Positions 5,374 to 6,434 of a stretch of DNA of 56,945 nt are shown here, piece after piece; the stretch's first letter is position 1; every line of letters starts with the position of its first letter. Source of the DNA: Tritonibacter horizontis (lineage in GTDB: Bacteria; Pseudomonadota; Alphaproteobacteria; Rhodobacterales; Rhodobacteraceae). A program made the translations under genes and the position numbers. Location: positions 1-56,945 of the forward strand of contig NZ_LPUY01000040.1 in the NCBI RefSeq assembly GCF_001518015.1. Direction: 5' to 3'. Below the pieces are notes generated by a model. That model saw only the letters and a program-made list of their open reading frames with translations, was not told the DNA's origin and did not search any database.

Positions 5374-5598
5374 TCAGGCGATAATATCCGGCAACAGTCG
5401 GTCTTCGATCAGTGAAATCTTGTCCTTCAGGTTCAGTTTCTGCTTTTTGAGGCGACGGATCGTCAATGGATCTGCGGTGCCCCTCTCTTCCAGCGCGTCA
5501 ATCGCCTCGTCCAGATCGCGGTGTTCGCGACGAAAGACTTCCAGCTCTACCCGAAGCACATCTTCGGTAGCCATTGACAGATCGGACCGCTCGTTCAT
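5374..5598 (-). CDS. YdcH family (DUF465) small protein
   Basis: This 74-residue charged helical protein matches the YdcH/DUF465 family of small cytosolic proteins: RREHRDLDEAIDALEE followed by a short turn (ADPLTIRRLKKQKLNLKDKI), typical of its two-helix hairpin. The biochemical role of the family is not established. The start at 5598 has AAGAG a few bases upstream; a second ATG at 5574 lacks a ribosome site. It is divergent from hsp20 and may be read through into purEK, about 290 bases downstream. Confidence 0.85.
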   Translation of the reverse strand: MNERSDLSMATEDVLRVELEVFRREHRDLDEAIDALEERGTADPLTIRRLKKQKLNLKDKISLIEDRLLPDIIA

Positions 5599-5694: not shown

Positions 5695-5723
5695 CTTGTG
5701 AAACGGCAGGAACATCCCATATT
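5695..5723 (+). promoter_or_regulatory. candidate RpoH (sigma-32) promoter of hsp20
   Basis: CTTGTG (5695-5700, continued by AAA) is 15 bases from CCCATATT (5716-5723). This resembles the heat-shock sigma factor consensus of CTTGAAA and CCCATnT with 13-15 base spacing. Transcription would start near 5730, giving a leader of about 60 bases that holds the hairpins described next. The position directly upstream of hsp20 supports the call; it is not experimentally shown. Confidence 0.6.
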
Positions 5724-5733
5724 CTATACCATA

Positions 5734-5784
5734 TCGGTTGCCAGATTGGGACCGAAAGAAACCGTCGCTTTCGAATTAAGGACG
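5734..5784 (+). promoter_or_regulatory. ROSE-like RNA thermometer in hsp20 leader
   Basis: The leader can fold into two hairpins. The first pairs TCGGT (5734-5738) with ACCGA (5751-5755) and CCA with TGG inside. The second, next to the start codon, pairs CGTC (5763-5766) with GACG (5781-5784) and CTT (5768-5770) with AAG (5778-5780), leaving G5767 bulged. Thus TCGCT faces the ribosome-binding AAGGA. ROSE elements of alphaproteobacterial small heat-shock genes use exactly a U-(U/C)-G-C-U segment with an unpaired G opposite the Shine-Dalgarno, melting on heating. The structure is seen in sequence; the thermometer function is inferred from the family. Confidence 0.7.
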
Positions 5785-5792
5785 AGAAAACA

Positions 5793-6206
5793 GTGTCGAA
5801 ACTTACCTTGGGTGCATACCCGCATATGCTGGGCTTTGAGCAGCTGGAACGACTTCTGGAACGCTCTGCCAAATCCGGTAATGAGGGCTATCCTCCCTAT
5901 AATATTGAACAGACTTCCGAGGATTCCTATCGCATTACCCTGGCCGTGGCCGGGTTTGCGGAGCGGGATCTGGCGATCACGGTCGAGGATCGGCAATTGG
6001 TGATTCGGGGTCGCCAGAGTGACGAGTCCGATGGGCGGATTTTTCTGCATCGGGGGATTGCTGCCCGTCAATTCCAGCGCATGTTTGTGCTGGCAGATGG
6101 CGTCGAAGTCGGCGAAGCGGTGATGGAAAACGGGCTACTGCATGTGGATCTCACGCGGTCGCGACCGGAAACTGTCGTCCAGACAATAAACATCAGAAAG
6201 GGGTAA
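5793..6206 (+). CDS. Hsp20 family small heat-shock protein
   Basis: This IbpA-type small heat-shock chaperone of 137 residues would bind unfolding proteins in the cytoplasm during heat stress. The alpha-crystallin domain is clear: YPPYNIEQTSEDSYRITLAV begins it, GFAERDLAITVEDRQLVIRG follows, and GLLHVDLTR is the conserved late strand. The start is GTG at 5793 (MSKLTLGAYPHMLGF), preceded by AAGGACGAG. An upstream ATG in the same frame at 5574 would run through the promoter and leader. Regulation is probably two-layered: an RpoH-type promoter and a ROSE-like hairpin over the ribosome site. It is followed three bases later by the DUF1150 gene, a conserved pairing. Confidence 0.93.
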   Translation: MSKLTLGAYPHMLGFEQLERLLERSAKSGNEGYPPYNIEQTSEDSYRITLAVAGFAERDLAITVEDRQLVIRGRQSDESDGRIFLHRGIAARQFQRMFVLADGVEVGEAVMENGLLHVDLTRSRPETVVQTINIRKG

Positions 6207-6209
6207 ATC

Positions 6210-6434
6210 ATGCAGACACCAGTGAACATCGCAGAGACCGGCGGTCGTACCGTTTATGTGAAAACCGTGGACGTAGCCGATCTGCCCGAAACGGTTCAGG
6301 CCACTGTGCCGGGTCACAAACAACTTTATGCGGTGCATGACGAAGCCGGGGAACAGTTGGCTCTGGTTGCCGATCGAAACATGGCTTTCGTTCTGGCGCG
6401 TCAACACGACTACGCACCCGTCGCCGTGCACTAA
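6210..6434 (+). CDS. DUF1150 family protein
   Basis: This 74-residue protein resembles DUF1150: VYVKTVDVADLPETVQA, LYAVHDEAGEQLALVADR, AFVLARQHDYAPVAVH. The family is confined mainly to alphaproteobacteria and has no assigned biochemical function. It follows the hsp20 stop by three bases and ends before a strong terminator, so it is the second gene of a heat-shock operon. By guilt of association it may assist the chaperone; that is inference. Confidence 0.88.
   Translation: MQTPVNIAETGGRTVYVKTVDVADLPETVQATVPGHKQLYAVHDEAGEQLALVADRNMAFVLARQHDYAPVAVH

Follow-up and report, generated by a model that had tools for sequence, protein, structure and literature searches.

A candidate compact two-hairpin ROSE-like RNA thermometer in the hsp20 leader of Tritonibacter horizontis

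Between the promoter and the start codon of the small heat shock protein (sHsp) gene hsp20, the Shine-Dalgarno (SD) sequence lies within a short hairpin, which raises the question of whether this leader itself responds to temperature. The stretch of 56,945 nucleotides analyzed here (the window) is contig C40 of a genome (G000) of 4.86 Mb. In an initial annotation, an RpoH-type promoter followed by a ROSE-like hairpin masking the SD had been proposed, and this core claim is now supported by conservation, covariation, a covariance model match and precedent. At a probability of about 85%, we consider the leader, which would be transcribed from an RpoH-type promoter, to be a compact two-hairpin ROSE-like RNA thermometer.

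Layout of the hsp20 locus

The following features were located in the window.

5695..5700, plus strand: -35-like element CTTGTG of an RpoH (sigma-32)-type promoter (from sequence and conserved CTTG spacing)
5716..5723, plus strand: -10-like element CCCATATT (from sequence and a string search in leaders)
5729..5731, plus strand: predicted transcription start (from the distance to the -10 element)
5734..5755, plus strand: hairpin 1, GC-rich, near the predicted 5' end, with CGGTT[G]CC..GGGACCG at 5735-5754 (pairs covary)
5740, plus strand: single bulged G in the 5' arm of hairpin 1, flanked as Y-G-C (128 of 132 leaders have G here)
5763..5784, plus strand: hairpin 2, putative ROSE-like sensor, anti-SD CGTC[G]CTT (5763-5770) with AAGGACG (5778-5784) (from sequence, fold and conservation)
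5767, plus strand: bulged G of the U(U/C)GCU motif in hairpin 2 (G in 132 of 132 leaders)
5778..5782, plus strand: SD sequence AAGGA, masked by hairpin 2 (from sequence)
5793..6206, plus strand: hsp20, small heat shock protein of 137 amino acids, GTG start (PF00011, E 9.5e-18)
6197-6203, plus strand: SD sequence AAAGGGG of the DUF1150 gene (from sequence)
6210..6434, plus strand: DUF1150 protein (PF06620), beginning 3 nt past the hsp20 stop codon
6527..6549, plus strand: terminator-like stem-loop with T-run, possible end of an hsp20-DUF1150 unit (consensus scan)

The deduced Hsp20 shows 47% identity to E. coli IbpA across 119 residues, and among the best titled matches its identity amounted to 96% for an alphaproteobacterial MAG, 94% for Tritonibacter mobilis, 92% for Leisingera, 91% for Phaeobacter and 88-89% for Ruegeria; these values most likely place the organism in the Roseobacter group. 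When 149 genomes of the family were searched with the protein, matches were obtained in 147, 10 of which were weaker and IbpA-like only; the remaining 137, including that of the window, were treated as orthologues. The start codon had been thought to belong to the heat control as a GTG, a view we reject because 121 of the 137 orthologues start with ATG and 16 with GTG.

The DUF1150 gene was found directly 3' of hsp20 in all 30 of the nearest loci tested (window counted), and this constant neighborhood suggests that DUF1150, a protein of unknown function, is linked functionally to the chaperone; none of the papers listed in a literature search mentions DUF1150. That the hairpin control would extend to DUF1150, as had been claimed, is unsupported at the level of translation, since the gene has its own SD, which hairpin 2 leaves uncovered, so that control could reach it only via the shared mRNA or possible coupling. 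The terminator-like element is weak evidence alone (1 found by the consensus scan, with a shuffle mean of 1.7). Divergent from the hsp20 promoter, on the minus strand (5374-5598), lies a gene for a small DUF465 protein (PF04325).

The promoter layout can be read directly as CTTGTG, a 15-nt spacer and CCCATATT, in the arrangement first annotated, and it is conserved across the family leaders. A CATAT, CATGT or CATCT string was found in 136 of the 137 orthologue leaders, though a stretch of 110 nt would yield some such strings by chance. Ahead of this anchor, and outside the search string, lie two bases that are C in 121 and 130 of the 136 leaders, respectively. Also, the distance from CTTG to the anchor is 24 nt in 121 of the 136 and 23 nt in 7, the window having 23. 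A TTG-containing -35, a CCCATAT-like -10 (which we take to be the RpoH-type consensus) and sigma-32 spacing are thus all present, and from these letters we infer that the hsp20 promoter is probably an RpoH promoter. By sequence, the leader is the 5' UTR of an sHsp gene behind a putative heat-shock sigma promoter. In the case of RpoHI from R. sphaeroides, changes in the -35 TTG lower the activity by at least 80% according to the available text of PMC3441632. With a predicted start at 5729..5731, the leader would be about 63 nt long.

The minimum free energy fold of 5729-5810 consists of hairpins 1 and 2 plus a weak third one in the coding sequence. Both direct reading and this fold agree with the earlier description of two hairpins, the second of which masks AAGGA by TCGCT with a bulged G5767, and UCGCU (5765-5769) pairs with AGGA, as expected for a U(U/C)GCU anti-SD in the 3' hairpin. 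The bulged G5740 of hairpin 1, which occupies the position equivalent to that of the bulge in hairpin 2, is absent from that description.

Conservation and covariation of the leader in the family

An alignment by sequence alone was made for 134 leaders; L137 was omitted for having no -10 string and L022 and L136 for their odd spacing. L135 and L138 were force-aligned among the 134 though they lack the element, and counts for 132 leaders exclude both. In all 132 element-bearing leaders the position of G5767, the bulged G facing the SD, is a G, and the anti-SD letters are TCGCT in 131 (window counted) and CTGCT in one. The GG at 5780-5781 is kept in 133 of the 134 leaders. The two hairpins are conserved in distinct ways. 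For hairpin 1, outer pairs are swapped freely: just outside 5736-5753, 37 leaders have G-C and 36 have C-G, and the two positions are paired in 100 of 134, compared with 56.5 expected from shuffling. Hairpin 2 is near-invariant and shows few compensations, its pair 5764-5783 being G-C in 127 and A-T in 3 of 132 lettered rows. The percentage of paired cells was 92.4 and 93.4 for hairpin 2 and 75.4 and 80.9 for hairpin 1 in the unfitted and in the fitted alignment, respectively.

Double-change cells, whose counts are inflated by the relatedness of the leaders, numbered 21 versus 7.4 after shuffling in the unfitted 47-sequence alignment and 57 versus 20.7 in the fitted 100-sequence alignment. For four of the five covariation measures, none of the 500 shuffles came up to the real value in either alignment, and for the fifth 2 or 3 did. 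When the structure was slid along the alignment, pairing and covariation scores were lower in 6 of 6 slides in both alignments; in the unfitted one, the +1 and +3 slides each gave 24 double-change cells compared to 21 for the real structure, and the +3 slide gave 8 double-change pairs compared to 7. Most pairs of hairpin 2 are too invariant to covary, so that the signal could stem in part from a conserved SD region. A comparison with related hsp20 leaders had been suggested with the initial annotation, and compensatory changes that keep the structure are indeed present, mainly in hairpin 1, for which the evidence is strong, and to a limited extent in hairpin 2. Judged from these alignments, the compact two-hairpin leader is conserved across nearly all of the family.

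By eye, hairpin 1 and the SD hairpin are separated by a third hairpin in leaders L022 and L231, and hairpin number may therefore vary.

Covariance models and known thermometers

The Rfam ROSE models had been named as a check, their silence counting as refutation. No Rfam ROSE match was obtained in the window even at E<=10, and RF00435 gave none in the own genome; the leader thus reaches neither gathering cut-off, 45 bits for RF00435 (ROSE) and 65 bits for RF01832 (ROSE_2). This result says little about the element, because a search of relatives, run with stricter filters, covered 61 genomes and in none did either model exceed its cut-off; as a positive control, RF01832 recovered E. coli ibpA with 100.4 bits. 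Seven sub-threshold ROSE matches (L153, L154, L157-L161) all adjoin an hsp20-like gene whose product is 43 to 52% identical to that of the window, which indicates that the missing match reflects narrow models. One match, lying on the other strand and belonging to a plant-virus pseudoknot family, came from a low-threshold Rfam search and was judged to be due to chance.

Model R1 was built from 47 leaders, that of the window among them. All 100 relatives scored with it (L033-L132) were matched at the start codon, 46 of them being R1 training sequences. Beyond the window, R1 gave 10 matches in the own genome, and the 7 with assigned loci (L170-L176) have no hsp20 nearby and were taken as noise. 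Model R2 was built from the 100 relatives, aligned through R1, without the window. Among the 37 orthologue leaders outside its training set (window counted), 33 were matched at the start codon. L135-L138, 4 of the 137 orthologue leaders, gave no match to the leader model; these are diverged orthologues with 55 to 61% identity. In the 4.86 Mb of the own genome, the sole R2 match at E<=0.05 is the window leader (31.2 bits, E 0.0024), and the same search gave matches in 15 of 17 further genomes from the genus and in 6 of 7 further family genomes. R2 also matched 80 of 80 leaders from the best 80 titled public records kept, a set that overlaps with its training sequences (L281 and L048, at least, are one record). 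Class-wide, 12 of 190 genomes were matched, nine of them outside the family, and 7 of these nine matches lie upstream of hsp20; L182 and L184, likewise outside the family, are not near hsp20. The genome-wide search misses some existing leaders, as in genome G005, and absence there therefore means little. In summary, the curated Rfam models miss a thermometer candidate that is found family-wide, and a simple covariance model catches such leaders.

The closest precedents are the short ROSE-like thermometers of Pseudomonas ibpA, which in the available text of PMC3669281 likewise consist of two hairpins in front of an sHsp gene with an RpoH-type promoter, in a leader of 61-62 nt compared to about 60 nt here, and in which hairpin 1 is stable and hairpin 2 masks the SD by U(U/C)GCU. 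Unlike those, the element described here is a predicted one with an alphaproteobacterial sequence, and its gene is followed by DUF1150. For Nautella sp. R11, a member of the Roseobacter clade, typical ROSE-like motifs at ibpA and hspD are mentioned in PMC3230580; clade, gene type and claim are the same, and in the text available to us the motifs are stated without sequence or structure. In view of these two precedents, the window leader belongs to an already known kind of element.

The rhizobial type of ROSE (RF00435) shares with the window leader an SD hairpin with a bulged G and a first hairpin with a lone G before CC, and differs in that it spans 94 positions with three hairpins, of which the middle one is bulge-free. 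ROSE_2 of E. coli ibpA (RF01832) resembles it in its UCGCU anti-SD with a bulged G and in a bulged G in hairpin 1; however, RF01832 has no match in the window and R2 misses the E. coli ibpA leader. When 10 kb of E. coli were searched, R2 matched nothing but the SD hairpin of ibpB (L198, 4908-4923; 8.0 bits, E 0.68). ROSE-G elements have a bulged G in the anti-SD strand, as here, and differ by CUGCU, by another bulged G in the strand of the SD and by their location at ABC transporter genes, as far as described in the available part of PMC12857270. In leader L122, read by eye, the strand facing the SD has CTGCT for TCGCT, as in the anti-SD of ROSE-G.

The own genome contains a second sHsp gene, which is IbpA-like (L001, contig C95, around 105,700) and has a ROSE-like leader of its own; there, ATC[G]CTC..GAGGAT covers the SD, and bulged-G hairpins lie upstream.

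Melting, rival explanations and the bulged G

Heat induction, melting and repression by the leader are what we infer for hsp20. Heat shock would act through RpoH to raise hsp20 transcription. In hairpin 2, the UCGCU anti-SD strand would pair with the SD and the single bulged G would keep the helix weak; at growth temperature hairpin 2 would block the ribosome, and upon warming it would open and allow Hsp20 to be made. The far more stable hairpin 1 should remain closed; its role is probably to insulate, fold or protect the 5' end. Hairpin energies are in line with these roles. Family medians are -4.2 kcal/mol for hairpin 2 and -11.4 kcal/mol for hairpin 1 (-5.9 and -9.1 in the window), and hairpin 1 is the more stable one in 131 of 132 leaders. 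The window value for hairpin 2 falls within the range of -4.1 to -7.6 kcal/mol given for Pseudomonas sensing hairpins in the available text of PMC3669281. At 37°C, the median predicted SD opening is 0.0017 for leaders and 0.044 for shuffled sequences, which is about 26-fold lower, and 116 of the 134 leaders are below their own shuffles.

Upon folding at 25 and 42°C, a check put forward with the initial annotation, the predicted SD opening changes little in the window, and here the thermometer reading is at its weakest. For the window leader, the opening increases from 0.0031 to 0.0073, i.e., about 2.4-fold, for isolated hairpin 2 from 0.0003 to 0.003, and with the first 20 bases of the coding sequence added it is near flat (0.15 to 0.17). 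The temperature response of this leader is therefore proposed on account of its kinship with known thermometers. The small change would also suit a hairpin that simply lowers translation at every temperature and leaves heat control to transcription, a reading we regard as improbable, as the family median of predicted opening rises 7.6-fold between 25 and 42°C and the invariant bulged G fits ROSE-like elements. Nearest-neighbor models are weak for such imperfect helices, which also counts against a constant dampening of translation. In ROSE-like elements, deletion of the bulged G lowers heat induction, as stated in the available text of PMC11342760. That hairpin 2 is a chance fold around an ordinary SD is very hard to believe: by single-sequence stability alone the leader would pass for one (z = -0.09, with 83 of 200 shuffles folding at least as well), and the bare TCGCT-N2-11-AAGGA motif is not rare (46 in the genome compared to 69 in the reversed control), but such a hairpin would not show the family-wide conservation and covariation reported above.

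By analogy with E. coli, Hsp20 might itself be the main regulator, binding both bulged-G hairpins and blocking translation until aggregates draw it off, with melting being secondary. In its favor, IbpA of E. coli represses both itself and IbpB and binds to the 5' UTR of its own mRNA, according to the parts of that work available to us, and the bulged G recurs in hairpins away from the SD. As such autorepression is compatible with a thermometer and does not exclude one, and as a primary mechanism seems unlikely to us, we retain the ROSE-like thermometer as the preferred reading.

The recurrence of the bulged G was quantified in scans that count a hairpin only if its 5' arm has a single bulge, whatever the base, bulge-free hairpins being left uncounted. 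In the orthologue leaders the bulged base was G in 127 of 127 cases (125 in Y-G-C context) versus 141 of 362 in shuffled sequences, and in 14 leaders of IbpA-type paralogues it was G in 25 of 26 versus 24 of 82. Also in the 13 hsp20 leaders of a further set (nine from outside the family), G was found in 20 of 21 cases, 19 of them as Y-G-Y; start positions of L153, L154, L157, L158 and L160 are a few bases off, and their upstream stretches are therefore approximate. As a background, the bulge base was G in 27-31% and Y-G-Y in 9-10% for the window at large, and G in 19-33% and Y-G-Y in 0-22% for 10 kb of E. coli, where hairpins were few. With looser thresholds, a bulged G was present in all three hairpins found for E. 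coli ibpA and in two of three for ibpB, the third having an A. The 3'-arm control leans to G as well in the orthologues (43 of 63), which counts against specificity; 38 of these 63 bulges are in G-G-C context and perhaps represent other registers of the same G-run, and in the paralogues the control gave G in 1 of 6. Moreover, the leaders are related by descent, so that these occurrences are not independent events. The first hairpins of both RF00435 and RF01832 contain a lone unpaired G; the middle hairpin of RF00435 has none, and the module is thus not part of every ROSE hairpin.

Across the leaders, the stem of hairpin 1 varies freely and its bulged G hardly, which suggests that the bulged G kept in upstream hairpins is a recognition feature, perhaps for sHsp autorepression. 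In a more far-reaching and quite tentative version, to which we would give rather low odds, repeats of one module, a hairpin whose 5' arm has a single bulged G in Y-G-Y context, would make up the ROSE leaders of sHsp genes; the module would be kept even away from the SD as a recognition site, most likely for a self-repressing sHsp, and its copy at the SD would double as thermometer. In the available texts of PMC11342760, PMC9450479 and PMC12857270 the bulged G is placed in the SD hairpin, the word 'bulge' is absent from that of PMC3669281, and among the papers listed in a literature search of freely accessible texts there was none on a bulged G in upstream hairpins. The function of the 5' hairpins in ROSE-like elements 'is not fully understood', in the words of PMC3669281 as available. 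This gap becomes testable if one asks why a hairpin that does not sense temperature keeps a bulged G from Rhodobacterales to E. coli. The residues named in the available part of the E. coli autorepression work align with R92 and Y33 of the window Hsp20, and the link between the bulged G and autorepression of the IbpA type is drawn by analogy.
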